Notes under the pieces: model-generated
What the model saw: the letters and a program-made list of their open reading frames with translations, nothing else
Database searches by the model: none
Told to the model about the DNA's origin: nothing
Shown: in pieces, positions 4,621 to 58,960 of the stretch
Layout: every line of letters begins with the position of its first letter
Position numbering within the stretch: position 1 is the first letter of the stretch
From: Loxodes magnus
Lineage: Eukaryota > Ciliophora > Karyorelictea > Loxodida > Loxodidae
DNA length: 64,000 bases
NCBI GenBank assembly: GCA_946699065.1
Contig: CAMPDV010001537.1
Location: 51,758-115,757, forward strand
Direction: 5' to 3'
Made by a program: the position numbers and the translations under genes

Positions 4621-4964
4621 AATATGAAAAATAATTAATTATTGATAAAATTAATAGTGATATAGAAAACCTTTAAAGTTTTTAACTTAAAAAGTTAAAA
4701 AAATAGATAAGCTTTCCTTTACTATATAATTTCTAAAAGTTATAGTAAAAATAATTAAAATTATGCAATATAAAATGGAATGAAAATTTACTTTTAAAAG
4801 AATTTTAAATTAATTTGAAAATAAGAATAAAATATAAAATTATATAGATATATTAAAAATCTTTATTAAAATTATAAATATAAGAGTCAATAGCTATAGA
4901 CAAAAAAATATTTAATTAATAATAATAATAATAGTAAACTAAAAGTAATTAAAGTTTAGCATTC

Positions 4965-4982
4965 CCTGGATTTTCAACCAGG
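4965..4982 (-). other. 3-prime hairpin of the gag-only retroposon
   Basis: Sense strand CCTGG, loop TTGAAAAT, CCAGG, just upstream of the (ATT)n tail. Equivalent hairpins sit at 19226-19241, 54583-54597, 58895-58912, 46514-46527 and 2708-2722, with paired changes in the stem. Confidence 0.6.
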
Positions 4983-5002
4983 TTTTTGCTACCATTTTTT
5001 TA

Positions 5003-5047
5003 GCGTGGATGGATACCACGCCATTTTTTTATGTGGATGGAACCACA
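5003..5047 (-). repeat. Duplicated GTGG/CCAC hairpin unit
   Basis: Two adjacent units share a T-run followed by a stem: gcgtgg with ccacgc (5003-5021), then tgtgg with ccaca (5032-5047). Other copies of the element have only one such hairpin, so this copy carries a short tandem duplication. Confidence 0.5.
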
Positions 5048-5189
5048 GAGGATCTTCTGTCTTTTATGTGAATAGTTTTCTCTTGTAAATCCCTGTTTAG
5101 GTTATTCAGAGTCTGCTGAGTATGCTTAACGTTCTTTATTGTTCTTTTATCTAAATTTATCTTCACTAATCGCAATTTTGTAATAAGTG

Positions 5190-5744
5190 TCACTTTGATT
5201 TGCAATAATAGCATTGTTTGCCTTGTTTTTTCTTGAATCTCTTCAGAAATACTTTTTTTTCAAGTTAATCGATTCTTTTGATTAAATCTATATTAATCTT
5301 TTAGTCATTCTATTTTTCTTAAACGTTTGCTTATGTAGAAACATTTTCGATAATCATATTTTGTTCTTGCTTAAAATTCGATTGAGATTATTCATATAGT
5401 TACTATTCCGTGACTAGATTATTCTAAATCAATTATCGTCTAATTATTAGAAGCTCGTTATTTTAATCTTCGATAGTATTCATTAGTTCTCTTATTTTTT
5501 CCCCTTGGTTGTAAATTGTTTCCTAATAATTTTGTATTATTGTTTTCATTTGGTCAAGCTATATTTATATTTCGGATTATTTTTATACCTTTACTGGATT
5601 CGATTCTATTGTTCCGATTATGATTTTTCCTTCAGAGGAGGAACTTGATTTATCTTCTTCTTGTTGTTGTCTCTGCATTTGTTTCGCAGCTTTCCTTTTT
5701 GCGTTCTTAATTTGGTTTTTGGAAAGGCGAATAGATTATTCCAT
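5190..5744 (-). CDS. Gag-like coiled-coil protein, ends inside zinc knuckle
   Basis: In the ciliate code this is 184 residues from ATG at 5744 to TGA 5190-5192. The start is fixed by conservation (MEQSIRLSKNQ here, MDQSLRLSKNQ at 20009) and lies within ten bases of the element's 5-prime end. N-terminal residues 1-35 are basic and Gln-rich, then comes a DKSSSSSEGK stretch. A long Gln/Glu coiled coil follows (GEKIRELM about residue 95) and the beginning of a zinc knuckle, CYYCKSK. The TGA falls one codon before the knuckle His; in the same frame HLLQNC follows, so the motif is otherwise complete. Expected role is nucleic-acid binding in a retrotransposon RNP. Either the TGA is a stop that removes the knuckle, or it is read through. 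Confidence 0.75.
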
Positions 5745-6784
5745 TTTTTTATATTTAATTAATAATAATAATTCAATTTTTCTAATGATAAATAAAAATA
5801 GTTTAAAGTTGTAATAAATAAATTAAATTGAGAGATAAAAGCGAAAATATATTTTTCTACAAAAAATTAAAAGATAAAATTTAAATAATTTTAATCAAAA
5901 AGGCTAAAATAATTTTTTTTAATAATAGAGAAAATAAAAGAAAAATAAATTAAATATAGAAATATAAATTTACATACGCTTTATTATATAAAATTTAAGT
6001 TAAATAAACTAAATTCATTTATTCAATTATTTATTTTTATGCTTTTTCTGAATCTTTAAATTTAGTCTTAAAGATTATTTGCTTATCAATTCCTTTTGCT
6101 CAAAAAGTAAATTTAAAGACGATGTGAACTAAATTAAGGTTACAAATAAAGATTATTTGAAACAGTTAAAAATTAAAATTTTAAATATAAAATTAGTTAA
6201 ACTAATTAAATATTAGACAAAATAAGTTTAATACATTTTAAAAGTAAAAATTTATTACTATAACCGATAATAAATAATTTGCTTAAATTTGTAAAATAAA
6301 ACTTCTATTATTCAATTTTTTCAGTTGAGCAACAAAAGAGAAAAAAGATTATATTTAACTTGAAAATATTTATTTATTAAAGAGATTTTTATTTTAAAAT
6401 AGGATTTATTATATAATTTATAAATCACAACATTTTTATTTTTTATTAAATGTAAAATATAAAATTTAGATATTCTAAGCATTTTAAATATTTTAAAATT
6501 AAATAAAAAAGTTTCTATTTTTTGAAAATTATTCTAATTATTTCATAAATTTATTTTATTTTACTAAACTATCATTATGCAATTATTGATATTTTACTTC
6601 TAATTTTAAATAAGATAGCTAATTTTCTAATAAATTTTGTTTTTTTCTAAATTAACTAGAATAGATAAATTAAATATTTGTATTTTAACTCTTTATTATG
6701 AGATACTTTAAATCATTCAAATTACTGTTTTTAATTTTAATTATTAAATATTAAACAATTATGAAGAAATAAACTAGAAATAAT

Positions 6785-8400: not shown

Positions 8401-8455
8401 TGAGGAGTTCTAATTAAATAAAATTATATTTTATAATTTAGAATAAACTAATTTA

Positions 8456-11537: not shown

Positions 11538-11550
11538 CTTATAACTTTAT

Positions 11551-12547
11551 AATAATTATAATAATTTTATTTAAATTGTTTTGTGGCGCCAATTAGCCAC
11601 ACTAAAAAGAAGTTTTAAAGTTATCTTTATCTTGCTTGTTGCTAGTTCTAGGATTCTTGAGCTTTGCTCCTCTGATCTTTCATCTCCCACTATATTTTAT
11701 TTTAGCTCTATCTCCAAATTCTTCCAGTTCAAGGTTACTTTTCAATCTGTAGACTTCTCCATTTGTTCTACATCAGATCTGGTTCTTGCTCTTTCTTATT
11801 CTTTGCTAGACTTGTTTTTTCCATATAATTTCTTTTACTTTACGAAACTCACCGCAGTTCTTCCATTTGTGCCATTTACTTTTACAATAGTAGCACAGTT
11901 TCACAATCCGAGGTTTTTGATTAGTTTTCATCTTAACTTAAGGATTCTTCTCGATCTCCATCTTATCAGATAGAATTTACTCCAATGGAATTTGCTAACT
12001 TTGGAAGCTTTTCTGACTTTGTAAGATATTTTCGATCTGCTAGCTCTAGTCTTGAATCTTTTGCACTTAGGAGTTCGTCTAACTAAATTACTCTCGTTAG
12101 TAATTCCAAAGAGCGTCGAGTTCCCTCTCCTAATTGACCATTCTAAGATCAAGTGTATCTTAAATTCCATGAGAGATCAGCTCCGTCAACTTTGTGTTTT
12201 CCTTGCGAAGCTTTTTAACCTCTTCCTGGAGGTTTAGTACTACTTTTATGAGGTATTCCATGCTCATCTGGCCAAAAGGATTAAATTAAGAGACCTCCTG
12301 ATGGAGAGCAGACTTCATCTGCTTCCTCGGTTTTTCACTTGAGGTTGGGGTTTCCATATGGGCTGTCTTTAAGGTTATCTTTTGTTAATCTTGTTAAGTT
12401 TCAGGTTTTTATTAAGAAGAAGATTGAGGTTATTATCAAAAAGACAGAGAAGAGATAGTTTCCTGCTTCCTCTCTTCCTTTTTGGCTTAGGAAGAGGTGG
12501 TATAGAAGCCTTTCCTGAAACTTTATTCCATTTTCCTTTTTTTTATG
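11551..12547 (-). mobile_element. Gag-only retroposon with perfect target-site duplication
   Basis: The element is flanked by the identical 13-bp repeat cttataactttat (11538-11550 and 12548-12560). On the minus strand it starts close to an ATG at 12531, is visibly richer in G+C than its surroundings, and ends with a stem GTGGC/GCCAC (11583-11600) followed by an A/T tail containing ATT repeats. About 1.0 kb long and without polymerase sequence. Confidence 0.8.
11773..12531 (-). pseudogene. Gag-like protein with intact CCHC zinc knuckle
   Basis: This 253-codon frame runs from ATG 12531 (MEQSF, matching MEQSI of the copy at 5744) to TGA 11773-11775, with one internal TGA at 12436-12438. From the second Met at 12357 it is uninterrupted for 194 residues. 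Order: a Ser/Gln-rich N-terminus, EKPRKQ, a coiled coil with LQEEVKKLRKENTKL, Gln-rich helices, then CYYCKSKWHKWKNC, a complete CX2CX4HX4C knuckle whose two Trp codons are TGG. About a dozen Gln codons are TAA or TAG, the clearest evidence here for the ciliate code. Downstream, after a 1-base shift, the frame is again conserved with the copy at 15064-15725. Nucleic-acid-binding gag function is inferred from the knuckle. Confidence 0.8.
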
Positions 12548-12560
12548 CTTATAACTTTAT

Positions 12561-15063: not shown

Positions 15064-15725
15064 GTAAAAGTAAGAGAATATTAAACTTTTTAGAAGCTTC
15101 GTAAAGAGAATGACAAACTATCACAATAAACCAAGCACGGACTGCAAGACACATTAGACCTCAGAATGTCTAACTAGGAAAGAAAGATCAATGCTCTATG
15201 GAAGTACTAACAAGAACAGTTCAGTCAGACAAATTTCCAAGTTCAGTAGATCCAAGCCCAGAGCTAGCAGTTCGAAAACATTTTGCAAAGTCAAAAGAAT
15301 CTACAAAGCTAGCAGATTCTATCAGAATATAATTTCAGTTCCGATAAGATGGAAATAGAAAAGAATTCCAAGCTGGATCAATAAAAAGGACCTAAGATAA
15401 GGAAACTATGCTACTACTACAAAAGTAAATATCATCTGTGGAAAAACTTTGGATAATTCGGAAAAGTAAAGGAAAATTCGTGGAAAAAGCAAGTTATACA
15501 GTAGATAAAAAAAGGAAAAACTAAATCTGATGTAGACAGAATGGAAAAATCTATAGATTGAAAACGGACCTTGAATTGGAAATATTGGGAAAAACGACAA
15601 ACGAATGAAATGACAAAAGATGGAAGACAAGAAATACAAGACTCGCGAGTTCTAGAGCTCGTTAAAAACTAGGCTCAAACTTAAAAACTTCTTTTAAGCG
15701 GTGACTGGCTGGATCCGCTAAAAAA
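15064..15725 (+). pseudogene. Gag-like element, 5-prime truncated, damaged knuckle
   Basis: One frame runs from KLRKEND (15094) to TGA 15559-15561 and continues in frame to the 3-prime hairpin. It is the closest relative of the element at 11551-12547: LDLRMSNQER, the Gln-rich helix and KVKENSWKKQ all align. The knuckle reads CYYYKSKYHLWKNF, so the second and last Cys ligands are lost. The TGA (ID-TGA-K) falls at the same place as a TGA in the other copy (TD-TGA-K), with conserved coding on both sides. The 3-prime end has stem AGCGG/CCGCT at 15697-15719. The N-terminal half is missing, as expected for 5-prime truncation. Confidence 0.7.
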
Positions 15726-16323
15726 TTTATTTAATAACTTAATATTAAGCTTTTTAAATAAATTAATATTTTTATGAGAAAAGTAATACTTTATTATTTT
15801 AATTTACAATTTATGAAATAACTTACATTAAAAAATTAAATTAATTTATATTTTTGTAATTTTTCTTAATTAATTCCAAGAATTAGCTTAAAATTTCAAG
15901 ATATAAAATTATAAAATTTAAGTCTTAAATAAAAGGTTCAAGAAATAGATATTTATATTAAATATTGTTTTTGGCAAGAAAAGTAAAGTTTTAGATATTT
16001 AATTTTAGATAAATTTGGTAGAAAACTGAAAAATTTTATGCAAATTTAAAATAAAAAATTTTATCATTTTAGATAAGAAATACTTTTAAAATTTTTTAAG
16101 CAATATAAGTAGACTATTTACTTTAAATTAAAAAACATACTTGATTAAGAGCTTTGAAATGCTTATTAATCATCATCCATTGCTCTAATTTGCAAGATTA
16201 GTGTAATTTTTAAATTGAAGTCGTGTTTAAACTTCTTAAAGATTTTTTCGCGTCTCTTTATCTTCTTAAAATTTTTTATAAATTATTTTTAAAATTTATA
16301 CAATTTTAATAAATCAATATTAT
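15726..16323. other. A+T-rich spacer
   Basis: A short Lys/Asp-rich minus-strand frame near 16160-16270 looks slightly coding-like, but it is too short to call. Confidence 0.4.
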
Positions 16324-18418: not shown

Positions 18419-19180
18419 TTACTTAATATAAAGATTTCATAAAAAAAGAAACTTTTCACTTTTTAGGAATTAAGAAATAATTCAAGCAATGACAATTTCT
18501 TATCAGAAAACTTGTAACTAAAGATCTATATTTTTAAATTATATTATAGCAATACTTTACTACAGTAAAGCATTCTCTTTCTGTATATTAGATTACAAGT
18601 GTCAGAAAACTATAAAGCAGGAATCTTTTTACTTCTTCATAAATTAATTAAAGAAGAGTCACTAATTAAAACTAATGTACTCTAAATATTTTACATTTTT
18701 TGTGCATTTAATTCATTAATAATAATAAAAATTAAAGAAGTCAACAGATTAATATATTAAATATCTTACTAATCTCTTTTCTAAGTCATAAGTAATAAAA
18801 AATTTCTAAGATTCAGAAAAATAAAGAAAGCTAAAAATGATAAAAAGTAAGCAAAATATATAATTTCTAATATTATTTTTAATATTTTAGTATTTCTTAG
18901 TTCTGTTAGATTTATCACAAAAATATCTAATTAACTACTAAGAAATAGAAGTTACTAAATTTATAAAGGTAAAATTAGTATAATTTTAGCTTATTTTATA
19001 TTTGTATTTCCATGAATAAAATATTATTAATTAAGTTATATTCTGATATTAAACTTCATTTTAATGCAACTTTTTGCTTCTAAAAGTAATTGTTAATTTT
19101 GAATACTTATTTGTTTTTTAAAACATTAAGTTTATCAAACATTTTAAGAAGGTAAAATATTCTACTAAATTGTTCCTTAT

Positions 19181-20018
19181 AATAATAATAATAGTATACT
19201 TAAAGTTAGTAGAGTTTTGCATTCTCTGGAATTGCAACCAGTTCCTGCGGACAGTTTTTTTAAATTGGGTGTGATCCACGACATTTTTATTAAGTGGAAG
19301 GTTACCACTGTAACCGTTCAAGTGGTCTTGCAAAAAGCTTTTATTTGTAGATCCCTGTTGGAGTTATTCATAGTTTATTGAGTTGTATCCATGTTCTTTT
19401 CTGCTCTTATTCGTTTATTTTCTTTCATTATCAACAGTTTTTTAAAATATGTTGATTTGATTTGCAACATCAACAAAGTTTGTATTATTGTCTTTATTTC
19501 GTTCTTTTTTATGATAATTTATTTTCTATATTTTCTAATCTTTTAATGAAACTTGTAGCAATCATTTCTTTTTCTGGATTCAATTCTGTTTTTAATTCTA
19601 TTGGTATTTTTTCTATTTCCATTTTTGTGTCGTATTTAAAATTTTATTATGATTAAGTTCAGAGTTATTCTTCCGTTATTAATTTGCTACAAATAAGTTA
19701 TCTTCTAAGTATTAGTAATTCGTTGTTCTAATCTTCTATATTACTCATTAGTTCCCGTATTTTTTCGCCTAAGTTGTAAGTTGTTTCTTCATAATTTGAG
19801 ATTACTTTTTACATTTGATCTAATTAAATTTAAAGTTTTTGATTAGTTTCGTTTTTAGGTTAACTTATCTCTATTTATCCTACCATAACTTTACCTTCTG
19901 AAGAAGAGCTTGACTCCTCCTATTGTTATTATTTTTTCTAAATTTCTTTTGCCGCTTTTCTCTTTAGGCTTCTAAGTTAATTTTTTGAGAGTCGAAGAGA
20001 TTAATCCATTTTTTTTCA
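19181..20018 (-). mobile_element. Gag-only retroposon with perfect 15-bp target-site duplication
   Basis: Flanked by taaattgttccttat at 19166-19180 and 20019-20033. The inverted paralogue C2 has a single, unoccupied version near 60165-60180. Length is 838 bp, almost the same as the 821-bp element at 4930-5750. The 5-prime end is an A-run plus ATG; the 3-prime end is the CTGG/CCAG hairpin (19226-19241) and an (ATT)n tail. Confidence 0.85.
19434..20009 (-). pseudogene. Gag-like coiled-coil protein with zinc knuckle, TGA-interrupted
   Basis: The frame runs from ATG 20009 through 192 codons to the end of the knuckle without an indel. It parallels the copy at 5190-5744: MDQSLRLSKNQ, EESSSSSEGK, GEKIRELMSNIEDQNNELL. 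TGA occurs at 19659-19661, where the other copies have Tyr (TAT) or Gln (TAA), and at the first variable position of the knuckle (19470-19472). The knuckle is C-TGA-CCKSNQHILKNC, with all four ligands present. The same frame continues beyond with further TGAs at positions shared with the copies at 5190 and 58170. Confidence 0.75.
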
Positions 20019-23000
20019 TAAATTGTTCCTTATTTATAAGATTAAAATATTTAATAAACTTAAATTATTATCTTAGCTAATTAAAAAGGAGACAAAGCTT
20101 TTTTAATACTTCACACATTGTATTATAAAGATCTTTATTAGGTTATCAATCATTACAAAAAAATGAATAAGTAAGTTAAATTATCTATTTTTCAGCTTTT
20201 CTCTTTTATTTCTTTATTTGTAATTTTTTAATTATTTATGTCATATAGTATATCATTCGTTTTTATCTAATTATAGGATTAATTTTACTCTTTATAATAG
20301 TTTAATAAAGTCTATTTTTTCTTATAGAATTATCTTTTATATTTATCGAATGTTTTCGAATTTAAATTGTAATGTTAATCCTACTTGATCTAGGAAATGA
20401 ATTTCTCAATATATATTTAAAAAATGTAGTTTCTTTTTAAATTTTGATACGCTATAAGAACATAACTTGCCAAATTTCAAATTTGTTAATTTATAAAATG
20501 TAAGTCTAAACATTTTCTACTTTTATATTATCTAAATTTTTAGATAAGGTATTCGATCATAAATTCAGCTTTATTTTAAAGATTTAACAAAAAAAGTCAT
20601 AATTTCCTTAAAATTTTAGTTTACTTTACATATTGATTTGTTTTATCAGTTTAGAATAACCTAATTTCTAATCAACATATTTTGTTGAGATTCTATAGTA
20701 AATGATAATAGAACTTAGTTTATCTTCTTTTAATAAAATAAGCAAAAAACGTAGCATAAATACTAAAGCATTATAAGTTAAAACTATAAATAAGAGCATT
20801 TTTTTATTTTACATAGTTAGAATTATATAGTAACTAAAATATTTTCCTAATCGTAAACTTTATATTTATTTAAGTAACATTAATTTGTTAAATGCTCTCT
20901 TCGTAGAAACAATATATACATTTAAAAAATAAAATAGCATAATTTTATTAAATGCTTGTAAATTTAGAAATTTATTAATGTTTTATTTAGTGAATTAAAA
21001 ATTTAACTTGATTCTCTATTTAATTTTAATGTAATAATCTAAAATTAATTATTTTTTAAAAACTTTAAAATTCTAATTTAAGGCCTGCTTGCTAATTAAA
21101 TTTGAATCATCACTTTATTGTTCCATTCAAAATTTTATAGTAATAAATAAAATTGAAAATATTTTAACTATTTATTAAATATATCATCTAAAAAATTATT
21201 TGCAAAATAATAATATTATTAAAAATATGAATCAAAATATAATTTAATAATAATTTAAATTAAATTAAATGTTAATTTTATTATAGTTGGGTAATTCATA
21301 ATCTTAAAATATTGATCTTTTAGTCTTCATAAAATTTTCTTTCTTTTGCATTATTTTGGTTTTTTACTTTTATGATAAGCAAATAATTATTTTTTTAAAC
21401 GAAATAAGCAAAAATAAAAAAAAATTATTTTGATCTTTTTACGAAACTAATTTTATATATATGTTTAATTGCAATTATTATAGTAATTAGTAATATAATT
21501 ATATTCTTTTATTTAATTTATTAATTTAAACATTAAAATTGTAAAATGTTTTACTGTTTAATAATATTTTATTTTCTTACATTTTTCATAAATTAACTTA
21601 AATTCATTTTTAATATGATAATTATCTACTTTAAATTTATTATTTTTGCTATTAAACTTATTTAATATTAAAAAATTGGATAAATTAAAAATTATCTCTT
21701 CAAGATCACTTTTCTTTTAGATTTTATTTTTTAATATTTATATTTCTTAATAATAAAAATTGCTTTTTACTATTTTATCTTTTTAATAAAGATTATCTTA
21801 TACAATATTTTAATTTTATACAATATATATATTTTTAATTGCTTCAATAGAACACTAAATTACAATTATTTGCATTCTCATTCTAAATGCTTTAATTTTC
21901 TTTTTAAAATTAATTTCTATTAAAAACTAATTAAAGCTAATTTTAATTATATTTTTAATTTTTGTACTAAATTTGTTCAAAAAGTATAATTTTTATTTTA
22001 TTTATCGGTTTATCAATATTCAATTTTTAGATTGCAGATTTCTTAATTTTCTTATTTAGAGTTACTACAAAAATATTTTAATTAATTACATTTTCTATTC
22101 TATTATTTTACGATTGATAATTTATCTTAAAAAATCCAAATCTATACTCTCTTAAAGAAGATGTATTCTATTTTGTAAAAATATTTAGCTATCATCTTAT
22201 TAAATGAAAAGCGAGAGGCAACGATCTTTTAAATAAAAGTGTTTTCCACATAAAAAAATCGTTTTTTTAAACTCCACCAAACTATGCTTCTTTGATTATT
22301 TTACGAATTACAAGCTTAAAATTTGGGTCTAAAAAGTCAAAATATAAAATTTCAAGGTTTGAGTCATTTTTTATTATGTATATGATAGAATTAAAATTTG
22401 AATATAAATAATAAGTAAATAATATTTAAATATATCTATAAAATTTTAGTCTAAAAACCGAAAAAATGAAGAAAGCTACTTTACAAAAAAAGCATAAATA
22501 TTTAAATGAATAAATACAAGAACTAGTACTATAGTAATAAATTTAATAAACATATTATGCTAAAACTTAATAGAATTAGCAGAATTTATAAATCTTATTT
22601 TTTATTTAATTTTGAATTAATTACTATCAATTATTTTAATTTTCAATTATTTTTTATAATTAATCTTGTGCTAAACATGATATAAAAAATACTTAATACT
22701 TTTAATTTTTCTTTATTTTAAATAAATTACTAGATAATCCATTTACACTCATTGAAATGAAAAGGAAATTTATTAAATAAAATTATTTCCGATCCATTTA
22801 AAGTTAATTTTTACCCTAAATTCATCAAAAAATGTTATTCTTTATTCAAATGCTTAACTATTTTCAATTTATTTTATTCTAAAATCTAAAAAATTTATTA
22901 TATTGCTATGCTTATCGCGTCTAATATTAGTCTGAATAATACAATTATTATCATTTTTTATTTCATTTTTCTTCATAAATAGGCTTATACTCATAAAGAA

Positions 23001-24034: not shown

Positions 24035-24845
24035 TTATAATAATTATAATTTAGACTAAATGTCAAATACAGATTTATGTATCTTGGGGCTTCAAATTGG
24101 TATCAGTGTACAATTTTTTTCGGGATTGTATATCGTGCTTTTTATAAATGGATGATTACCACAAAGGATTTTCTTAGTTTCTTATGGGTATTTTTATTCA
24201 TAGATGCCTAATATGTTATTAATAGTTTCTTTAGATTTTTTTATTTTTTAAGATTTTTCAGGTTTTTTTAATTTCATTTTTCTTAAGTTGCCTTCATTCT
24301 TTAAAATGTCTTTGCAAGTGATATCTAGATTTTTATTACCAACATATTTTGATATTTTTTCTTTGAATAAACTTTTATCCAACATCACAATTCTTTTGCT
24401 ATGGCTTATAAAAAAAATCATACTTTACTTTTATTAATGCTGAAATTTATGTAAATCTTCTTTTATAATAATTCTTTGCGATTATGTTGATTGGCTTAAG
24501 ACATTTTATAAAGATAATTTTTGCTACTAAAATATTTTTTATTAATTAAATTTTAAGAATTAATATTTCACTGTTTGGTCTTCTTTGCTGCTCATTAAAT
24601 CCAGGATTTTAACTCCTTGATTAAAATAATTTCTTTACTATGCAATTTATAATTTCACTTTTTCAATTTTATTTAAATTAATTTGTTATTTTTAGTTTCA
24701 GATCAGTTTATTCAGTCAGACAAACATTACTAACTAGATTCTCGATTTTGTTTTAGCTTTTTTGACTCCTAATTAGTCTCTTTATTTCTAGATTTTCTTT
24801 TTTAATTATTAGAGAGACAAATGCTCTTTCCATTTTCTTTTTTAA
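24035..24845 (-). pseudogene. Gag-like retroposon, older copy within repeat C
   Basis: ATG 24833 follows an A-run, as in the young copies (MERAFVSLIIKKENLEIKR). The frame reaches TGA at 24663-24665, and its continuation keeps the same phase as far as the knuckle remnant CWQQKSRYHLQRH at 24344 and below, in which Cys2 and Cys4 are lost. The 3-prime end near 24050 has the usual (ATT)-rich tail preceded by tttagactaaat. About 810 bp, so nearly full length. The 5-prime half is duplicated in C2 at 55265-55690. Confidence 0.65.
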
Positions 24846-26992: not shown

Positions 26993-27500
26993 ATGAAACT
27001 CACTTCGGTGCAAAATGTAGAAATATTAATGGATAATAAATGATCAGAAAAATAGATCAAAAATGAAAAACAACATTTTAATTTTGCAAAAATAAGATAA
27101 AAAGAACTAGAAAAGACAAAAAAAATTGATACAGAGAATAAAAGAAAACTGGATAAATCAGACAAGAATTCTAATAGAGTGATTGTGTTCCAATGGAAAT
27201 AATAAAAGAAAGTAACTGAAATCAAAATAAATTAGAGATCTAAAAAAATTTCGAAAATTGATGACACCTACGATGGAAATGTCCGTAGCAAGAGAAAATA
27301 AGAAGAGTAATCGGGAGATCGATCTGATACAAAATAATGACTTTCTTGCCATCAAGTTATGAGAAGATCTGACGGAGAAAACGAGAATTATCAGACAAAA
27401 CTAATATACTGTTTAGAGAAAGGAAAATCTTACAGATTTTTTAAATCTTTAAAATTTCTAGCCGAAAATTTAACTTATTTTGAATTGAATATGAAAAATA
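26993..27500 (+). pseudogene. Coding-like island of repeat A, copy 2
   Basis: Counterpart of 4132-4620: MKLTSVQNVEILMDN at 26993, then TGA, then a Lys-rich frame with KISKIDDTYDGNVRSKRK and QEEQSGDRSDT. Indels relative to A1 change the frame in the middle. Confidence 0.4.
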
Positions 27501-28866
27501 ATTAATTATTGATAAAACTCATAGTGATATAGAAAAACTTTAACATTCTTAAATTAAAAAGTTAAAAAAATATTAAAAATTTCTTTTACTATATAATTAC
27601 TAAAAGTTATAGTAAAAATAGATAAAAATTTAACAATATAAAAAAGAATAAAAATTTACTTTTAAAAGAATTTAAATTAATTTGAAAATAAGAATAAAAT
27701 ATAAAATTATATAGATATATCAAAATCTTAAATAAATAAAATTATAAAAATTATAATTATATAGAGATAATAATTACAAGCAGAAAATTATTAAACTAAT
27801 AATAATACATAAATTTTTCTAATGATAAATAAAAATAGTTTAAAAAGTGTAATAAAAAAATTTAAATTTAAAAATAAAAATAAAAATGAAAATGTAGATA
27901 TATTTTTCTACAAAAAATTAAAAGATAAAATATAAATAATTTTAAATAAAAGGCATTTTTTTAGATAATAGCGAAAATTAAAGAAAAATAAATTTAATAT
28001 AAAAATTTAAATTAACATAAACTAAAGATTCATTAAAAGCATAAAAATAAATTACTGAGTATAAAAACTTAGTTTATTTAACTTAAATTTCATTATAAGA
28101 AAAATATAATTTTATAGATTATTTGCTTATCAATTCCTTTTGCTTGAAAAGTAAATCTAAAGACGATGCAAACTAAATTAAAGTTACAAATAAAGATTAT
28201 TTAAAAAGAGTATAAAAATAATTTTTTAAATATAAAATTAGTTAAATTAATTAAATATTAGATAAAATAAGTTTAATATAATTATAAAATTAATATATTA
28301 TTACTATAACCGATAATAAATAATTTCCATAAATTTGTAAAATAAAACTTCTATTATTCAATTTTTTCAATCGCTTGATAAAAGAAAAAAAGATTTAATT
28401 TAACTTGAAAATATTTATTATTAAAGAGATTTTTATTTGAAAATAGGATTTATTATATAATTTATAAATCACAACACATTTATTTTTTATTAAATGTAAA
28501 ATATAAAATTTAGATATTCTAAATTTTTAAATATTTTTAAATTAAATAAAAAAGTTTCTATTTTTTGAAAATTGTTCTAATTATTTCATAAATTTATTTT
28601 ATTTTACTAAACTATCATTATGCAATTATTGATATTTTACTTCTAATTTTAAATAAGATAGCTGAATATTTAATAAATTTTGTTTTTTTCTAAATTAACT
28701 AGAATAGATAAATTAAATTAAATAAGTGTATTTTAACTCTTAATTATGAAATCCTTCAAATTACTGTTTTTAATTTTAATTATTAAATATTTAAAAATTA
28801 TGAAGAAATAAACTAGAAATAATTTATTCTTTGCTTCTCTTCTTTATTTAAAAATATACAAGTTTC

Positions 28867-36290: not shown

Positions 36291-38073
36291 GATTTTTTAA
36301 TGTTTTTCTTTACAATTAAATTTAAAGTTCTAAATTTATCATATTTGACTCTATAATTACCTTTTATATATTTTTTCATTTATAAAAGAAATTAAGATAT
36401 TTATCTTGCTATTTAAAAGATTAAAAAAGTACTATTTAATGAAACAGAAAAATTACAATAATTAAATAAATATAAATCTTAGTAGCCTATATATATTTAT
36501 TAAATATTTAATAAGATAACAAATTGCGAATAATGTAAGGTTTAAAATAGAATTATAAGCATGAAAAATAGTAAATAAAACAATAAATGATATTTAAGAA
36601 TATTTTTATAATGATCTTAAATATTAAAGCAAATCAAAATCAAAATACTGTATTAACAAATATAATAAGATTTTTATAAACATTTCAAACTTTATTTATA
36701 TTAATAAGTATAAAATTATGCTTAAAAATTAGGTATTATAAAATAAAAAATATGAATAATAAGCTGAAATTATTAATATTCCATAAGTTATTTTAAAACT
36801 TAATTATAAAAATTTTAATTCGTTTATAGCAAAAATGAATAACTATTCAATATATTTCTAAATTAAAGATTCAAATAAATAATTTAAATAAAATTTATTG
36901 ACTATATTATCTTTAGTTTCCTTTCATACTCTAATAAAATATAAATATATTAAAATGGACTAAAATTATAAAGCTACATTATAAATAACTAAATTTTCTT
37001 ATTTCTAAAGCAATTATATCTTATTTTTTTAAACTATAAGATAATTTTAAATGTATATTATTTAAAAAATGAATAATTTATGCCGAGTAAATAAAATAGG
37101 CTTTTTTTGTTAAACCAAAATTACATTTTCAAAAGTAAAAATTTTTAAATGAAAGTGATAGCTTTCTCAGAATTATAGATATTAATAGAAAAATTAATAT
37201 TTTTTTGACAACTTTTTAAAAATAAAAAAATGGAAAAACTTAATAAAATTTGTAAGTAATATAATCTGTTTTAATTATGTAAAAATGATAAACATGTATA
37301 ATAATTTTATAAGCAATTTTAATCGTATAAAATACATAAAAGTTAATCTGCTTTATTTATCTAAATTATAAATAGAATGAACAAATTTGAAGTTTGATTC
37401 CTTAAAATTATATAAATTTGAATCCAGAATATCTAAAATTATTTATTTTTTAAATAAACAAATTTCAATTTAGTTCTCTTATAGGTAATATTTTAAATTT
37501 TAACTATTTTTTCCAAAAAAATTTTACTGAAATTAATTTGCTATTTCAGTTTAGGAAAAATTAATAATTTCATTTTTTAAATCTAAATAGGATCAAATCC
37601 TTTTTTAATTGAGTTTATTTAATTTAAAAAATTGTTTTTGATAAATAATTTTTTCTAATGACATATTATCAATTGAAGAATAATTATTTCAATTTTTTCG
37701 ATTTTTCTGTTTGCTAATCATATAAGAATATTTTCGGTTAATTTTACAAGCATTTATAAATCTTTAATGATGTAAAAATTCTTATAAAGATTTTTTGTAA
37801 TATTTTTCTGAAATTTATACAATTATCATCCTTTTAATCATTTTAGAACTATTTACTGAGATATGATTTTATATCAAAAACATATGAAAATTCGTCTTTC
37901 TTAACTTTTTTAATTTCAGACTTTTAATCTACTATAAACTCCATATCAACATCTATATTAGTGTTACAACTATCTCAAAAACTTAAGAATTTTTTTATCT
38001 AATGTGATTTTTTTTACATTTTTTAAAATATAAATAAAAGATAATCTATTAAAGTCTTTTGAGTACAAGTAAA
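36291..38073. other. A+T-rich DNA, nothing recognised
   Basis: No credible frame, element end or repeat found. Confidence 0.5.
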
Positions 38074-38925
38074 TTTATTATTATTATTATGAACTAAATT
38101 AAAAAAAAGGTTTAGCATTCTCTGGGGTCTCAATCAGGTACTTACCTATTACTATTTTTGTAATAAAGATCAATACTACCTTCTTGATTAAGTGGAAGGT
38201 GACCACTGTTGATTCTTAATCTATCCAACAAATATTTTTCTCTTATAAATTTCTTTTTGATGTAATCCATAGTTTATTAATCTAAGCCCATATTCTGTTT
38301 TGTTCTTTTTCGTTAATTTTTGCAAGTTATGCATTTCTTTAATAAATGAATCCTGATTTACAGTATCAACATTGCTTGAATTCTTATATTGATTAATTTT
38401 TTTATAAATATCTTGTTTTCTATTTTTTCTAATCTTTTAATTATTCTGATTTTAAATTTATAATTCTGGAATTTCTTCTTTTTTTATTTAAGGTGGAGTT
38501 TTTTCTAATTCCATTATTGATTATTGGGTAAATTTGATTAAGATTATCTTTATAATTATTCTTCCGTTACTAATAATCGATTTTAAATGAGTTATTTTCT
38601 TAAATTCGTTAATTTACTATCCTGAAAATCAATATTGCACATAAGTTCTCTCATTTATACAAATTGATAATATATAATTTCTTTGTATCGGAAAATTTAT
38701 TTCTTCATTTTTCGATTTAGTTTTAGATTATTTAACATATGTCATTTTTATTCTTCTACTTATTACGTGCCAACAATCACTTTACATTGGAAAGAATAAT
38801 TAGCCTCTGATGTAATCATCTATTTTGATTTTTCTTTGCCGCCTTTCTCTTGGCTTTCCTATTTTATTTTTTAGAAAAGTGAATAACTATTCCGTTTTTA
38901 ACACGCAATTCTCAATCTTTCTTGT
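38074..38925 (-). pseudogene. Gag-like retroposon, nearly full length, decayed
   Basis: Same architecture and size as the elements at 4930 and 19181. The start codon position reads ACG (38895), so the ATG is lost. The knuckle relic near 38371 reads C-TGA-YCKSGF, with His and Cys4 lost. Downstream of it KINEKEQNRIW and NKLWITS align with the other copies; the Trp here is TGG, whereas the copies at 4930, 19181 and 58170 have TGA. The 3-prime end (38074-38140) shows a weakened hairpin, then tttagttc and an (ATT)n tail. The target-site duplication is unclear. Confidence 0.7.
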
Positions 38926-44108: not shown

Positions 44109-45477
44109 CATAATAAATTTATCATAAAGGTGTTATTATGCTAATAAGTAAAATAATAGTTTTTAACTTAATTCAATAACAACTTAACTCTAGGATTACA
44201 GAAAGCAATTCAATGATAATAGAAGAAGTTGATTGAAAATCTGCAAGAAGTTAGAAAATGTGTTATTATTGTAATCCTTAAACGCATTTATGAAGAAGAT
44301 GGTGGTAATTTCTAAATTTTATATAGATTTTTGGAAAATTAAAAAAACAGAAAGGAAAATCGAGAATTAGGAACAACTGAAGTTAAAAAAGATAGAAAAT
44401 CTATGCATGAACGTAATAGGAATCGTTTACAAGAAAAAAGAGAATTAAAAGTAATAGAGGAACTAAAAATCATAAGAATAGAAAATGAAATAGGGAATAA
44501 AAACCAGGAATTTTTAAATATAGCTTGTAGAACAATCCGGAGACTGGAGAGAAAGAGGTTGAAAATCCTTCAAGAACACCAACATTTAATTTAATATAAA
44601 ATATTAACTTTATTAATATAAAAAAATGGTTCCTAAGAAATAATCGAATAAAAACAAACAGGACATCGACTAATAAAACTATCTAATCGAAATATACTTC
44701 CCAGGAGCTGATAATAAAAAATTATAATAATCACTTCTAAACTTGATTTAACGATTAGATTCTCTAACTTTTACTGTGCAAAAACTATAAAAAGAAAATC
44801 AATGAAAAAAAATGAAAAAAATGGAAATCAACACTAAAGCATCCAATTCTTAACTTATCTAATAACTGGAAAAATGGAGTTAAAATTTAAAGATATTAAC
44901 AAGCAAAATAATTCTGAATAACTTATTTCTCCTCATAATGATCCTATGTGTAGTGGAATAGCAGTATTCTAAAACTTTTTCTAATAGGTAAAAAATTAAA
45001 AATTGAAAAAATGTTGGAAATGTCAAAAATTAGGACATATCTCCAAAAAATGCACAAAAATGATGTTTCTTTTGTTAAAGAATGAACATATATATAAAAA
45101 TGCTGGTACTTTAAGAGAAAACAGAAATAAACAAGTCAAAAGTTATGAAATGACATATCTTAGTTATACTGTTCCCCAGAAGGAATATTTTATAAGAAAA
45201 GGAATACGATGGAGATTAATCACAATTGGATATAGTAAACGCTCAAAAAAGAAGAACGTTACAAATGTTTGGGCCTAATTGAGACTGAAACAAGATTCCT
45301 ACAGTCAAGAAGGGATAAATGAGCTTGAGTCGATACGTATTAAAAGAATGCGGGTCTATTAATTCGAGAGAAGAATAGAGTGACTCCATGAACATTTGAG
45401 AAAACTTATAAAATGATTCCGTGACTAACCTAACAAAGGAAAAAGTCACGTAAATAGATTATTATTGTTATTATTAT
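44109..45477 (+). mobile_element. Longest gag-only retroposon (1.37 kb)
   Basis: Flanked by the 11-bp direct repeat aattgaaattt (44098-44108 and 45478-45488). The 3-prime end has a strong hairpin, CGTGACT (45430-45436 region) pairing with AGTCACG (45444-45450), immediately followed by an ATT/GTT tail (45459-45477). The interior is one long frame. Confidence 0.75.
44217..45383 (+). pseudogene. Gag-like protein, 388-codon frame with intact zinc knuckle
   Basis: A single phase runs from a TGA at 44214-44216 to the terminal TGA 45381-45383, with only one internal TGA (44709-44711). The N-terminal half is a highly charged helical region (QEKRELKVIEELKIIRIENE). The knuckle at 45006-45050 is a perfect CWKCQKLGHISKKC, CX2CX4HX4C with the canonical Gly-His. 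A basic C-terminal domain follows (EYFIRKGIRWRLITIGYSKR). The first in-frame Met is at 44403; an upstream start before 44214 would need another TGA to be passed. All Trp codons are TGG. This is the best-preserved complete knuckle protein with the classical Gly, perhaps representing the ancestral subfamily. Confidence 0.7.
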
Positions 45478-52124: not shown

Positions 52125-52945
52125 AGACTAAATTAAATGCTTAATATTGCATGCTCTTTTTCCGAATATATAAACCCATTTCGGATTAGCTGGATTTCTT
52201 TTTGGTTAGGATACATTCTTCACTCTTCTCTGCTGTTCAGGTTCTGCATTAGATTTTCATTTTCTTTTATACATCTTTCTTTGAAAAATACAATAATTTT
52301 TCAAAATTATTATATCTCCTTTCTTTTCAATATCTTTCTTACCAATATGCTTTTTGCATTTTCTGATTCAATAACATAGTCAATAAAAATGTTTATAAAT
52401 TCCTACTACAGTAGTACTTCTTTCATATTGGCTTAGTTAGTATCTCCAAGTGTAAAAAGGTAGTATCTTTTTTAATTTCATTTTATTATCTATTTTTTCT
52501 TTTCGTTGTGCGTTTTAGAATTTAAATTGCAATTTACCCGATTTTCTTCCATTTCTCCGAGTATATATCAATTTTCATACTCTTCTATTATTTAGACTAA
52601 GTTTGACTGATTTAGTCTTGAGATATGTTTCAAAGAACATTCAGGTCTTTCTCAGGTCATTAGTCTCAATTCTATTTCTTTTGTAATTTTAAGCTTTTCC
52701 TTGGTTTTTTTATTATCTTTCTTCAATTTTTTGTCCTTTTCTTATAGGTTTAGCACCAATTTAATAAACTAGGTATAGCATATTAATAACTTGGTGATTA
52801 AATCAGAGACTTACGAGTGTAAGATATTTTTGGCCTATTTTCTAGGCTTTTCTTCAGAAATAGGAGTTTATATTTATTAGCCAATCTTCTTGACGGTTTA
52901 TCTTTTATCATAGAAATTCTAGGAAACGCTTATTTCAACTTTTTG
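52125..52945 (-). mobile_element. Gag-like retroposon inserted at the end of a LINE ORF2
   Basis: The minus-strand element begins with an A-run and a start-like codon (GTT GAA ATA AGC, where young copies have ATG GAA TAA TCT). It is about 820 bp long. It ends with stem CCGAA/TTCGG and tttagtct plus an (ATA)n tail. One phase is kept throughout: TPISEEKPRKQAKNILHSQ and LVLNLQEKDKKLKKDNKK align with the element at 11551-12547. At least five in-frame TGAs occur in the second half, and the knuckle is not recognisable. Its start coincides with the stop of the neighbouring LINE frame. Confidence 0.7.
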
Positions 52946-53765
52946 GGAATAAGCAAATTATTTTTAATCTTGTCTTGATCTCATCATTTTTCTTTAAATA
53001 TTCTTCTTTCTACTCATCTTTTCCTTTTTCCTTTTTTGCTTCCTCCATTTCTAAATTCTCGAGTCTTCTTGCCATTAGTTTCTTGTGAAATATTTTGATT
53101 TATAACTCTAAATACTCGAAATTAAACCTTGAAAATAAGTTTATATATTCTTCATCATATATCATGAGATGCCTTAAGTCATAATTCCCGATCTTTTCTG
53201 ATAGTTAATCATTTATATTAGAATAGTATTCACAATTAAAGATATGTTTGAAAGTCTCATACTCATAACATATACAATAGGGATTATAAATAGAATAAGG
53301 ATGATTTTAAAGAATCTTACGAAAATAATAAGATTATGTTCTATGTTTATATATACTGATAATTTCTCGTCTATACTATTTGTTTAATTTTGTATAAATA
53401 ATTTGTGAAAATAGTTAAAGATTACCAAATTACTCAGTATTTATTTTAGCTGTTTTCATTCTCATACATTTTTTAGTAGCTAAATTATAGAAATATTGCT
53501 GCATTTTGTCTCTTATATGCTTATTAAAAATTTTAAGATTGGCATTATTCTATTAGTTCTGCAGATGGTCATATAGATCATTATGCTTGAAAATTTCACT
53601 ACCTTTAAAAATAATAATTTTAGCTGATGTGAAGTAAATAAATAAATAAAATAAAGTATATTTAAATTGGCTTAGAATTGAAGTTATAATAATGGAAGTA
53701 GTTAAATACTTGGTAAAATAAATGTATTTAAATTTAAAAAAGCATATAATTATTACTATAACCAA
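52935..53765 (-). pseudogene. Non-LTR retrotransposon ORF2, C-terminal region
   Basis: An uninterrupted ciliate-code frame ends at TGA 52935-52937. From about 53630 it reads as ordinary protein. KLNKQYRREIISIYKHRTQ is followed by NPYCICYEYETFKHIFNC, which matches the C-terminal Cys/His motif of LINE ORF2 proteins (CxxC...ETxxHIxxxC). A charged tail follows (KLMARRLENLEMEEAKKEK). About 230 codons lack any TGA. The reverse-transcriptase core is absent, so it is 5-prime truncated or cut by other insertions. LINEs supply enzymes acting on their own RNA and sometimes on others. A second copy lies at 60950-61560. Confidence 0.75.
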
Positions 53766-53829
53766 TAAAAATTAGTTTCCATCATATTATAAAATAAAAC
53801 TTAAATTATCTAATATTTTTATTTCAGGC

Positions 53830-54260: not shown

Positions 54261-54544
54261 AAGAAATTTTATCTGAAAATAATAAATTTTTATTAGCTTA
54301 TAAATCACTAAAAATTTAGTTTTTATTAAGTTAAATATATGCTTAATATTTTTTAGTTTTTTGGTTGCTTATCTCATTTGTTAAAAATATCTACTATTCA
54401 TAAATAATAGTTTTTATATTGACTTAATTAAATTAATTTTATTAATAAGTAAAACATTAGAATTGTTTCTTCTACTTTAAATAAGATAAATTATTTCTTA
54501 TAATTTTTATGCTTTTTTATTACGATAACTAACACAATAATAAT

Positions 54545-54885
54545 ATTTTACTTAAAAGTTTAAAAAATAATTTCGCTTTCCCCAGGAATTCAACCTGTTT
54601 GAAGCGGGCCAGATATTTTGACATGGTTGGTTTCCACACTAATTTGAAAGGTTAAAGATTGTTTCCTCTTGTTTAACTATGACTTATTTTTGGTTTTAAA
54701 TTTTCACCTTTTCTAGATTAGAAGGATCGGGATTGGCCATGCGCTTGTCTTAAGAAGGAGATGACGAGCTTGATTAATCGATAGCCTTCAGTTTTTATTT
54801 TTGGTTCTTAAGGATTTTTTTTCAAGCATTCTTGATTTCTACTTTTTTATGGTGTTGTCCAATGTTAAATTCCATTTTTTTAATA
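54545..54885 (-). mobile_element. Internally deleted gag-like retroposon
   Basis: It starts at an A-run and ATG 54875 (MEFNIGQHHKKVEIKNA). After one TGA it reads KAIDQSSSSSPSQDKRMANP, matching the Ser-rich N-terminus at 5190-5744, then jumps to the family 3-prime hairpins and A/T tail. About 340 bp, so roughly 500 bp of the middle is missing. The hairpin stem CAGG/CCTG (54583-54597) differs from CTGG/CCAG elsewhere by a compensated pair. With both ends retained it is a miniature derivative. Confidence 0.6.
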
Positions 54886-55264
54886 AATTTACGATAACTA
54901 GCATTGATAACTTAAATTAAATATGTATCTCTTTCTCTTATTTTAATTTAAGATACTTTAAATCATTCAATTTACCAAAATGAGCACTAAATAAACATTT
55001 CAATATTTATATAATAATATACCCTTTTAAAAAATACATATAATTAAATCAAAAATAACTGCTTTATTAAATTCATTTTTAAATGGTAAGAATAGAAAAA
55101 GTATAGAAACTAATTATTACTATAGCAATATAAGTGACATAAATCCAATGTACTATCATATATAATAAACCAGTTATTAAAATTTATTAAGTAATGAAGA
55201 ATTTGATAAGCATAATTTAGTAAATTTATAAAAATATAATTAAATAATAAAAAATATTTGTTTA

Positions 55265-55690
55265 GCTTTTTAATAAATAAGGAATTCGTCTCTCTAAGAA
55301 TTAAAGAAGAAAAATATATTAATCAACTAACTAGGAGCTAAAAAAGTGAAGACAGAATTGAGAACAGAGGGAAATGTAATGGTTGGTCTTACTAAATAAA
55401 CTAATCCTGAAATAAAAAATAAATTTAAAATAAAATTGAACTAAGAAAATATAAATTTCAAAGCATGATTAAATTATTTTAATCAAGAAGAAAAAATCCG
55501 GGAATTAATGAACTGCTTAGAAGATCAAACAATGAACTTATAATTCTTAAAGTTCACTGAAAAAAAATTTAGTAACAAAAATTAGCACTATGAAATGTCC
55601 TAGATTAATTAATATAATCGCGAAGAATGATTATAAAAGAAAATTAACATAAACTTCAGCATTAGTTAATTTGAGAAAAATTCATTTTTT
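55265..55690 (+). pseudogene. 5-prime half of a gag-like element in repeat C2
   Basis: SSLQELKKKNILINQLGAKK and, after one TGA, YFNQEEKIRELMNCLEDQ, aligning with the coiled coil GEKIRELMNTIEDQ at 5190-5744 and with the complement of 24430-24845. The 3-prime half is deleted in this arm. Confidence 0.55.
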
Positions 55691-58169
55691 TTAATTAAGT
55701 AGTAGTAAGGGAACATGTTTTACCGAAAAATAACCGAGATTAATTTAATGCTACATAAACAGATAAATATAGATGGTAATGAAAAGTATTTGTGATTAAT
55801 AATTCTATAAAATATAAAAATTATAAACTAAATATAAGTAATCTTAATAATGCTAAGTTTATGTAGTCAAATATTAGAAAAATTGTAATTATTTGGTACA
55901 TTATTAATTTAAAGAGAAAATAAAATCTATTTATGAAGATTAATTAAAAAAAGAAAATATTGCTAAAAAATTAATTAGTAAGCTAAGAAATGATAAACTT
56001 AAAATAATTGATGTGAAGTTATTATAGGATAATTATTTTACGAACAAACTAATTTATAAAATAAAAAAATAATTAGAAAACGAAACTATTTATGTACATA
56101 GAAAAATAATTATTTAAGTACAAACCTAAATTAAATCAATGTTTAATTTATTAAATTTTTAGCTAAAAACAAATTTAACTACTTTTGAAAGGAGCATCAA
56201 AGAAAGAAAATTAATAATTAAATATATAAATAAATTTTCTGTTTTAAATAAGTAAATTTTATCTTACTATAGGAAATTAGCAAAATTTTTAAATAGAGAT
56301 ATAATTTATTAATTAAATGGTTTGCTATTCTTTTGTGAGTATATACCATTTTATAAAGAAAAATGAAAGAAAAAAACTATTATATTATTAAACTGAGCAA
56401 TAATAGACGAAATAAGCTTAGAAATATAACTGAAAGTATTTAGATTTGAGACTAAAATAAATTTTAAATAACTAAAAAATTTTAGTAAAGAATGTCATTT
56501 GCTGATGAATTTAGTCCAAAAAATTTACCTTAAATGGATTTTAAATATATTTTATTTAATAAGGTTCATTTTTACCTCAGTATGAGTAAATAAATTATCT
56601 TGTGATTTAATTAAAATAAAGAAAAATTAAAATTAATAAGTATTATTTTATATAGTTTTGTTAGCAAAAGATAAATCATAATAAAATTACTGAAAATAAA
56701 AAAAATTGCTAATATTTTAATTTAAAATTAAATTAAAAACTAAAATTTGTAAATTCTGCTAATTCTATTAAATTTAGCATTATACATTTATTAAATTTAT
56801 TTTTAAATTTATAACTATAGTACTATTTCTTTTTTTATTCGTTTAAAAATTTATGTTTCATTTGTAAAGTAGCTTTCTTCGTTTTTTATTTCTACATTAT
56901 TAAACTAAAATTTATACATATTTTCTAATATTTTTTACTTATTGTTTATATACATTTTCATTCTATCATTTACATAATGAAAAGGACTTAAGCATTGAAA
57001 CATTATATTTTGAGTTTGTAATTCGCGAAATAGTCAAAGGGGAATAATATGGTGGAGTTATAAAAAAATGTTTTTAATGCAGAAAATACTTGTATTTAAA
57101 AGATCGTTACTTCTCGATTTTCATTAAAGAATATGATAGCTAAATATTTTTACAAATAGAACTTATCTTCTCTAAGAGAGTAGAGATCTGGATTTTTAAG
57201 AAAAAAATATCAATAATTAAATAATAGAATCGAAAATATAATTAATTAAAATATTTTTCGGTAGCGATAAATAAAAGGAGTATCTATCTTTGAGAAAAAA
57301 GAAGTTATAAGTTATTTGAAAAGTGAAGAAGTAAAGTAAGAAAAGAAAGAATTTCAATTTTAAGAAAAAAAATTAAATTATAACTAAAATTAACTTTAAT
57401 TCGTTTTGAATAGTAATTAGTTTTAAAAAGAAAATTAATACATTTAGAATGAGAATGCGAATAATTGTAATTTAGTGTTTTATTAAAGCATTAAAAATAT
57501 ATATTATATAAAATTAAAATATTGTATAAGATAGTCTTTATTGGAGAAGATAAAATAGTAAAAAGCAATTTTTTATTATTAAGAAATAAAAATATTAAAA
57601 AATAAAATCTAAAAGAAAAGTGGCTTTAAAGAGATAGTTTTAATTTACCAAATTTTTTTAATATTAAAGAAGTTTAATAGCGAAAATAATATAATTTTAA
57701 GTAGATAGTCATGCTATTAAAAATGAGCTTGAGCTAATTGATGAAAAATGTAAGAAAGTAAAATATCAATAAACAATAAAGCATTTTTCTGTTTTTAATG
57801 TTTAAATTAATAAATTAATAAAAGAATAAAATTATATTACTAATTACTATAATGATTGTAATAAAACATTAATATAAAATTAGTTTCGCAAAAAGATGAA
57901 AATTTTTTGATTAATTTTGGTTTATTTGTTTAAAAAAATGTTTAGTTACTTATCATAAAAGTAAAAAAATCAAAATAATGAAAATAAAGAAAGTTATATG
58001 AGGATTGAAAGATCAATATTTTTATAATATTTTAAGATTATGAATCACTCAATTTTAATCAAAATATTATCTTATTTTATTTATTATTAAATTATATTTT
58101 AACCTATATTTTTTAATACTATTATTATTTTACAAACATTTTTTAAGAAATAATATTTAGATTAAAAAA

Positions 58170-58960
58170 TTATAATAATATATTCGCCTTTCCAAATACC
58201 AAATTAGAAAAATAAAAAGGAAAGCAGCGAAACAAATGCCGAGACAACAATAGTAAGAAGATAAATCAAGTTCCGCATCTGAAGGAAAAGTCATAGATGA
58301 AACAATAGAGACAAATCTAGTAAAAGTATAAAAATAATCATAACTCTAAATATAACTCGATTAAATGAAAAAACAATACAAAATTATTAGGAAAAAATTC
58401 GCAATCAAGGGAAAAATAAGAATTTAATGAATACTATAGAAGATTAAAATAATGAGCTACTAATAATTAGATGATAATTGATTTAGAATAATTCAGTCAC
58501 GGAATAGTAACTATAAGAATAATCTCAATCGAATTTTAAGCAAGAACAAAATATCATTATTGAAAAAGTCTCTACATAAACAAACGTCCAAGAAAAATAG
58601 AATGAAGAGAATATTAATATAGAATTATTAAAAAGAATCGACTAAATTGTAAAAAAATGTTTAATAGATTCAAGAAAAGTCAAATTAATTAATGCTTTTA
58701 TTGATAATTGAAGTGATACTTATTACAAAATTACGATCAGTGAAGGTAAAATTAGATAAAAGAACAACAAAGAACGTTAAGTATGATCAGCAGACTCTGA
58801 ATTACTCAAACAGGGATATACAAAAAGAAATTATTTGCATAAAAAGCAGAAGATTCTCATTGGTTACATTCACATAAAAAAATGGTAGCAAAAACCTGGT
58901 TGAAAATCCAGGGATTGCTAAACTTTTATTACTTTTAGTTTACCATTATTATTATTATAT
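58170..58960 (+). mobile_element. Gag-only retroposon inside repeat C2
   Basis: Plus-strand copy closest to the element at 4930-5750 (RKAAKQMPRQQQQEDKSS). The start codon is lost (TTA in place of ATG). There is a frameshift near 58375, TGA where the sister copy has CGA (Arg), and a ruined knuckle (CFY-TGA-QLK-TGA-YLLQNY). The 3-prime hairpin (58895-58912) and (ATT)n tail are intact. C1 lacks this insertion. An imperfect direct repeat (about 12 bp, aatatttag-like) flanks it. Confidence 0.75.

Follow-up and report, generated by a model that had tools for sequence, protein, structure and literature searches.

A 64,000-nucleotide stretch from the karyorelict ciliate Loxodes magnus (assembly GCA_946699065.1, contig CAMPDV010001537.1, positions 51,758 to 115,757; hereafter the window) contains copies of a repeat family, F1, which is very probably a retroposon of the ORF1-only kind (ORF, open reading frame), that is, a non-autonomous element without long terminal repeats (non-LTR) that is inserted by target-primed reverse transcription and mobilised in trans. 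In the window, the family comprises the copies 4930, 19181, 24035, 38071 and 58157. The 4930 element was compared with 40 scored full-length matches, the best of 3068 first-look candidates, in a genome sequence of 705,730,643 bases within which the window lies. The 40 loci and the window give 41 rows, and 36 distinct insertions are left when locus L006, which is the window itself, and four copies with a common upstream flank are dropped.

The 4930 element lies on the minus strand, with a body of 812 bp (4933..5744) whose first base is that of the ATG, at 5744, directly after an A-run (A6, 5745..5750). The 3' region (4933..5078) has no coding signal and contains small hairpins and a terminal box, CTTTTAGTTTA, beyond which stands an (ATT)5 tail (4918..4932). 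The target-site duplication (TSD) is 22 bp long (left copy 4908..4929, right copy 5751..5772); it is overlapped by the tail, and 13 of its nucleotides also fit the tail repeat. Without exception, the 41 rows have a body of 812 bp from ATG to tail with the same 5' and 3' ends, an A-run of 4–31 ahead of the ATG (4–31 across the 36 insertions as well) and an (ATT)2–10 tail. The terminal sequence is constant in the rows and in genome-wide 40-mer counts, with the 3' end reading ...ACTTTTAGTTTACT(ATT)n, and flanking sequence differs from insertion to insertion. No LTR or terminal inverted repeat was seen on inspection of the rows, a separate search not having been made. RNAalifold, applied to nine F1 3' ends, gave two short hairpins and no net covariation support. 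The length of the A-run varies from 4 to 31 at the 5' junctions of L001–L070 though the bodies are near-identical and of one length, a variation that may reflect transcription slippage, slippage of the reverse transcriptase (RT) or added bases.

Direct repeats of 11–23 bp (median 15) flank all 36 distinct insertions. When flanks of different insertions were paired as a control, repeats of at least 11 bp arose in 163 of 1260 pairs, with a mean of 7.3, a background probably inflated by the ATT repeats of the flanking DNA. In 35 of the 36 insertions, the tail repeat and the start of the TSD overlap; filler of 1–20 nt separates the TSD from the A-run in 21, and in 11 of these 21 it ends in AT. Two empty sites of the 4930 insertion are present in the window, one 94% identical (62404..63363, plus strand) and the other more diverged, at 80% (27256..28245, plus strand). 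The 19181 element, a subfamily copy with a TSD (19179..20022, minus strand, nhmmer), likewise has an empty site, 89% identical, at 60546–59672 on the minus strand. The filled and empty sites of 4930 are carried by paralogous repeats that are 80–94% identical (62404–63363, 27256–28245 and 4400–6200). A preliminary description of the window, made from the sequence alone, had proposed these empty sites and insertion by target-primed reverse transcription, and had named as support many copies of one length with identical 5' ends and duplications. Such copies were found, and for F1 the case is stronger than that description made it: insertion of this type is well supported by the empty sites, the variable TSDs, the simple-repeat tail and the constant 3' end. 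Of the four TSDs it had listed (22, 15, 13 and 11 bp), that of 22 bp was recovered at 4930, and by eye a TSD of 13 bp is present at 11551.

Because TSDs stand directly at both ends of the 36 insertions, these copies do not continue into a long interspersed element (LINE). LINEs were sorted into group A (L071, L072, L074, L076), group B (L075), group C (L073) and group D (window 52959–53600, L085–L090). That F1 copies are 5' parts or ORF1 regions of some longer RT-bearing LINE or LTR element appears very improbable: CCHC knuckles do occur also in ORF1 of LINE-A and LINE-C, and in each of L085, the window and L075 a LINE has an F1, F2-like or F3 copy beside it, but both ends of F1 are constant and bear TSDs in 36 of 36 insertions in differing flanks, and the LINE-D sequence of L085 starts after the F1 (ATT)n tail. 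Furthermore, phmmer searches with the LINE-A ORF1 and the LINE-B and LINE-C translations returned no hit scoring over 12 bits anywhere in the window, where the F1 ORFs are located; the F1 knuckle has the CX2CX4HX4C motif in common with LINE-A and LINE-C ORF1, and these searches detected no similarity beyond it.

To place the family, we made an nhmmer profile from six F1 copies; those at 4930, 19181, 38071 and 58157 are window copies and thus match by construction. Among its matches are the 4930 element itself (4918–5753, minus strand), an old, diverged copy, the 24035 element (24086..24836, minus strand, E 7.6e-21), a decayed copy (38071..38910, minus strand), a copy 82% identical to 4930 in which the second hairpin is deleted (58157..58962, plus strand), and a partial match at 55365–55576 (plus strand, E 1.2e-10). 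The preliminary count of about 17 copies proved too high, the elements placed being six of F1 (one partial), two of the related family F2 with one weak match, one (52125) by eye, and one of a third family, F3. By eye, an element of about 345 bp (54536–54880, minus strand) was seen with an A-run and ATGG start, an F1-like hairpin, the box and an ATT tail at its end; it may be a relative of F1 that is non-coding or has undergone an internal deletion.

Genome-wide searches with 40-mers, at two or fewer mismatches, found 596 F1 5' ends and 594 3' ends, with 0 matches for a reversed control; 3' ends are therefore not in excess. The zero-mismatch 3' ends listed on contigs up to C148 number 52. For 40 of them a 5' end without mismatch lies 704–775 nt away (at 775 nt in 28), and the other 12 have no such partner. 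Taken from the other side, these contigs have 98 zero-mismatch 5' ends, of which 58 lack a zero-mismatch 3' partner among those listed, perhaps since the partner holds mismatches or another 3' variant. One clearly 5'-truncated F1 copy was seen (L002, 3200–3535), and frequent truncation is not supported. With hundreds of near-identical copies and no excess of truncation, the family appears to have been active very recently.

The coding part of 4930 that is under purifying selection (codons 1–222, 5079..5744, minus strand, read with NCBI genetic code 27) was characterised by the ratio of nonsynonymous to synonymous substitution (dN/dS), sequence motifs and a structure model. The protein consists of a long coiled coil, a CCHC zinc knuckle of the form CX2CX4HX4C (codons 178–191, 5172..5213, minus strand) and a C-terminal motif, W-[IL]-T-x-T-G-[IV]-Y-[KR]. 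The eighth knuckle position, codon 185, is an in-frame TGA (Trp in code 27) in 4930 and some relatives, and in-frame TGA is found too inside the CX2C in several subfamilies, as well as ahead of the C-terminal motif. The 150 best RT domains of the genome contain 3–9 in-frame TGA together with TAA and TAG, which fits code 27, that of karyorelicts. Every frame is open under this code, so openness alone is no evidence of coding and selection is. Six diverged F1 copies were aligned, and ungapped codons in the 4930 frame only were used. In codons 1–170, dN/dS is 0.12–0.33 in 13 of 15 pairs (2 saturated), and in codons 171–222 it is 0.08–0.35 in 8 of 15 (7 saturated). For codons 223–256 the values are 0.68–1.46 in 14 of 15 pairs, and 0.33 in the 4930/58157 pair. 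Low values through codon 222 indicate that the ORF is selected to about that codon and that the in-frame TGA is read through.

An AlphaFold model of this Gag-type protein, from a nine-row alignment, has a mean predicted local distance difference test (pLDDT) score of 67 and a predicted template modelling (pTM) score of 0.27, with helices predicted at 50–169 and 192–210, a small β pair at 212–222 and low confidence after 223. The boundary in the model agrees with the boundary of selection, though both derive from the same sequences. A profile search of the PDB gave nothing significant: of 14 weak matches (E 0.07–9), 10 are to Gag or nucleocapsid proteins over the knuckle part, and the best (E 0.07) is to a phosphodiesterase over the knuckle stretch. 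Pfam searches of the gag ORFs found no RT or endonuclease (EN) domain, all matches being below the cut-offs (best E 0.026), and no RT is present in the 812-bp body, which upholds the earlier designation of the element as gag- or ORF1-only.

A single ORF under purifying selection would also be expected if F1 were a processed gene or belonged to a host gene family of high copy number, an origin that we consider next to negligible in probability: the tail is (ATT)n rather than poly(A), the near-identical copies are dispersed, number about 600 and have TSDs, and at L067 a young F1 copy is nested inside an older one. The selection seen on the ORF suggests a role for the Gag-type protein in the propagation of the element itself, so that cis-preference and trans-mobilisation of ORF1 can be put to the test.

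A cycle compatible with these features can be outlined. The F1 RNA would start with the A-run and the ATG, finish in (AUU)n, and be translated under the karyorelict code into the coiled-coil, CCHC-knuckle protein, which we infer to bind its own RNA. The endonuclease/reverse transcriptase of a LINE, acting in trans, would nick AT-rich target DNA, and the nicked end (...AAT-3') could then pair with the AUU repeats of the F1 RNA. Reverse transcription would proceed to the 5' end, leaving the variable 5' A-run and a TSD of 11–23 bp.

The leading candidate for the helper, although unproven, is LINE-D, of which the window contains a remnant of the C-terminal part of ORF2 (52959..53600, minus strand). 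With both strands counted and L006 excluded, 719,242 nt contain 46 exact matches to the 11-mer CTTTTAGTTTA, of which 41 are in F1 copies, three at LINE-D 3' ends and two in one 3' end resembling that of a short interspersed element (SINE), at two paralogous loci. The LINE-D 3' ends in L086, L089 and L090 read ...ACTCTTTTAGTTTAAATTTA and contain the exact box. The link between the 3' ends of F1 and LINE-D is weak, though suggestive; the preliminary description had asked for a LINE sharing 3' ends with F1, and what some LINE-D copies share is this terminal box of 11 nt, not a long tail. A group of 202-aa proteins that might have been a separate short element was rejected as such, being LINE-D ORF2. 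The SINE-like element, at about 3110–3410 in both L085 and L086, is GC-rich, with an A-run and GATGG at its 5' end and the LINE-D/F1 box at its 3' end. Its TSD is inexact by eye; Rfam, at gathering thresholds, gave 0 matches in L085 and the window, and ARAGORN predicted 0 tRNA in L085.

In LINE-D copies, EN lies about 2.1 kb ahead of the C-terminal region (by eye, for example in C3210, C48, C4705 and C106), and a near-exact EN start is present at 455 places. The 910 nt upstream of EN in one copy, L091, contain neither a CCHC motif nor a match to the F1 gag profile, and the number of genomic copies falls from 475 for a 36-mer 12–47 nt upstream of this EN to 2 for a 45-mer about 650 nt upstream. 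The L091 copy may be 5'-truncated. A start of LINE-D at its EN ATG (AAAGATGGG) was rejected on account of the 475 copies of the upstream 36-mer. These data, with the common 3' box, would be accommodated by a split LINE in which LINE-D supplies EN and RT only, F1 supplies the missing ORF1, and neither element replicates without the other's protein. If true, this would constitute a bipartite retrotransposon in which F1 and LINE-D (and SINE) RNAs use one 3' recognition box. We judge it unlikely, however: the upstream view, including the end of the repeat within about 650 nt, comes from one LINE-D copy that is possibly truncated, a longer LINE-D with its own ORF1 could exist, LINE-A and LINE-C have knuckle ORF1s of their own, and the box is inexact in some LINE-D ends.

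It is somewhat more conceivable, yet still doubtful, that F1 is mobilised by LINE-A, LINE-B, LINE-C or some LINE not yet seen whose tail is (ATT)n. Copies of LINE-A are abundant and, being 96–97% identical, young, and an A-run followed by ATGG starts 4 of 4 LINE-A copies. Against this, LINE-A, -B and -C were rejected as donors of the 3' end, their terminal 13 nt scoring 5–7 of 13 against the F1 end, which is the background level, and no plain (ATT)n tail was present among the 3' ends of LINE-A to LINE-D that were examined, no systematic search having been made. The variable A-run beside the ATG and the 3' box that some LINE-D copies and a SINE-like element have in common with F1 provide handles on the helper machinery.

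Several points weigh against the interpretation of F1 as a trans-mobilised ORF1-only retroposon, or against the part assigned in it to LINE-D. The data on the family are genome sequence, and the sample of 40 copies is biased, consisting of the best-scoring of 3068 candidates. Segment limits in the dN/dS analysis were set by us, and some of the six aligned copies are decayed. The stop codon is uncertain: 4930 has a TGA at codon 257, and past codon 213 elements of the 19181 subfamily contain no TGA in frame; the predicted Gag would be 212–256 aa long. In the predicted RNA structure of the 3' end, compensatory change is seen in one of nine pairs, with a covariation term of +0.54. As to LINE-D, close variants of the box rather than the exact sequence are found in L085 and the LINE-D-like L043, in L087 and the window remnant divergence sets in ahead of the box, the tails are (ATTT)n- or (ATTTA)n-like and not (ATT)n, and an anchored test gave a score as high as that of LINE-D (11 of 13 or better) for 537 of 200,000 random windows.

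Retroposons of the ORF1-only kind are already known from Paramecium and mammals. Contrary to the preliminary statement that no such family had been described in ciliates, PMC5405496 reports for Paramecium tetraurelia seven solo-ORF1 elements, A–G, with a zinc finger resembling that of full LINE ORF1s, (TAAA)n ends in three of the seven, and mobilisation thought to occur in trans; 92% of transposable element copies are given there as germline-limited. By description, F1 is like these elements in having a single ORF1-type gene that ends in a zinc finger, no EN or RT, and a simple-repeat tail, though past its knuckle at codons 178–191 a coding signal extends up to about codon 222. Unlike the consensus sequences from Paramecium, it has (ATT)n tails, documented TSDs, empty sites, about 600 near-identical copies and TGA as Trp. 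Among the top papers listed in searches of the open-access literature, none was found to describe the Loxodes F1 family, the structure of its insertions or the link of its 3' end to a LINE.

HeT-A, from Drosophila telomeres, is a non-LTR element that encodes only Gag and obtains its enzyme in trans; it inserts at chromosome ends and has no TSDs, unlike F1, which occupies dispersed AT-rich sites with TSDs. SINE/LINE pairs share 3' ends, and F1 similarly has a short 3' box in common with its candidate helper; it differs from a SINE in coding for a protein under selection and in having no Rfam match in the window. HAL1 elements carry poly(A) tails, and the L1 ORF1 protein contains a coiled coil, an RNA recognition motif (RRM) and a C-terminal domain (CTD), not a CCHC knuckle. 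HAL1 (half-L1) of mammals is characterised in PMC5753468, in its account of such elements, as an ORF1p-only, non-autonomous LINE derivative. F1, being ORF1-only, works like HAL1 and is not classed as HAL1, which derives from L1; the searches with LINE-A, -B and -C, without a match above 12 bits in the window, yielded no parent LINE for F1. The precedent invoked in the preliminary description is fair in function.

For L. magnus, assemblies of 706 Mbp (somatic macronucleus, MAC) and 848 Mbp (micronucleus, MIC), the use of code 27, two complete LINE families and many unclassified repeats are reported in the main text of PMC11441545, in which "zinc knuckle" and "SINE" have 0 occurrences. The assembly with the F1 copies is probably the somatic one, and a restriction to the germline, for which the preliminary description had suggested a test, is not supported. 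The setting thus differs from that of the Paramecium elements, among transposable elements that are mostly germline-limited. The somatic genome of L. magnus is reportedly not extensively edited, which would place the F1 elements in the expressed nucleus.

Two families related to F1 or resembling it are present in the window. F2 is represented by an element at 11551..12544 (minus strand) with an A-run, a leader of about 180 nt, an ORF (11776–12357 and beyond), a 13-bp TSD (by eye) and a hairpin 3' end, and by a fragment at 15082..15745 (plus strand; protein search stretch 15082–15522); both are related to F1 (E 4.7e-6 over 5151–5411). A weak F2 match lies at 2895–3068 (E 0.001). A possible F2-like copy beside the LINE-D remnant (52125..52936, minus strand) was recognised by eye, with boundaries taken from the preliminary description, and was not recovered by the F2 protein search of the window. 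The layout earlier ascribed to all copies holds for F1; in F2 the A-run/ATGG 5' end sits about 180 nt upstream of the ORF ATG. The F2 5' region is weakly similar to that of LINE-A (64% over 109–121 nt, E 1.8e-4 in a small database) around TATACCACCTC.

F3 is a gag-like element at 44622..45475 (plus strand), with an ORF from 44626 and a paralogue in L075 that aligns with the 1.37-kb "44109" stretch from 44585 onward only. An A-run and ATGG 5' end stands at 44622 and, by eye, a decayed knuckle-like fragment precedes it, so that the 44109 element looks composite; this element and that at 11551, taken earlier as larger relatives of F1, belong to F3 and F2, respectively. Starts of A-run plus ATGG or GATGG occur also in LINE-A (4 of 4 copies), F3 and the SINE-like element; AAAAATGG occurs 17 times by itself in the window, and single cases of this type therefore mean little.

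Three further observations concern RT-bearing or LINE sequences. An open stretch at 9772–10434 (plus strand) has, by eye, an RT-like motif, NNKTTGDDGLKAE, and gave no RT match in Pfam. In contigs C5131 and C20, RT-bearing units stand in tandem about every 2.5 kb, perhaps as an assembly artefact or a LINE satellite. At about 6068–6704 of L075, an F3-type gag element lies directly at the 3' end of the LINE-B copy, an adjacency that could be either a chance nested insertion or the use of a preferred target.

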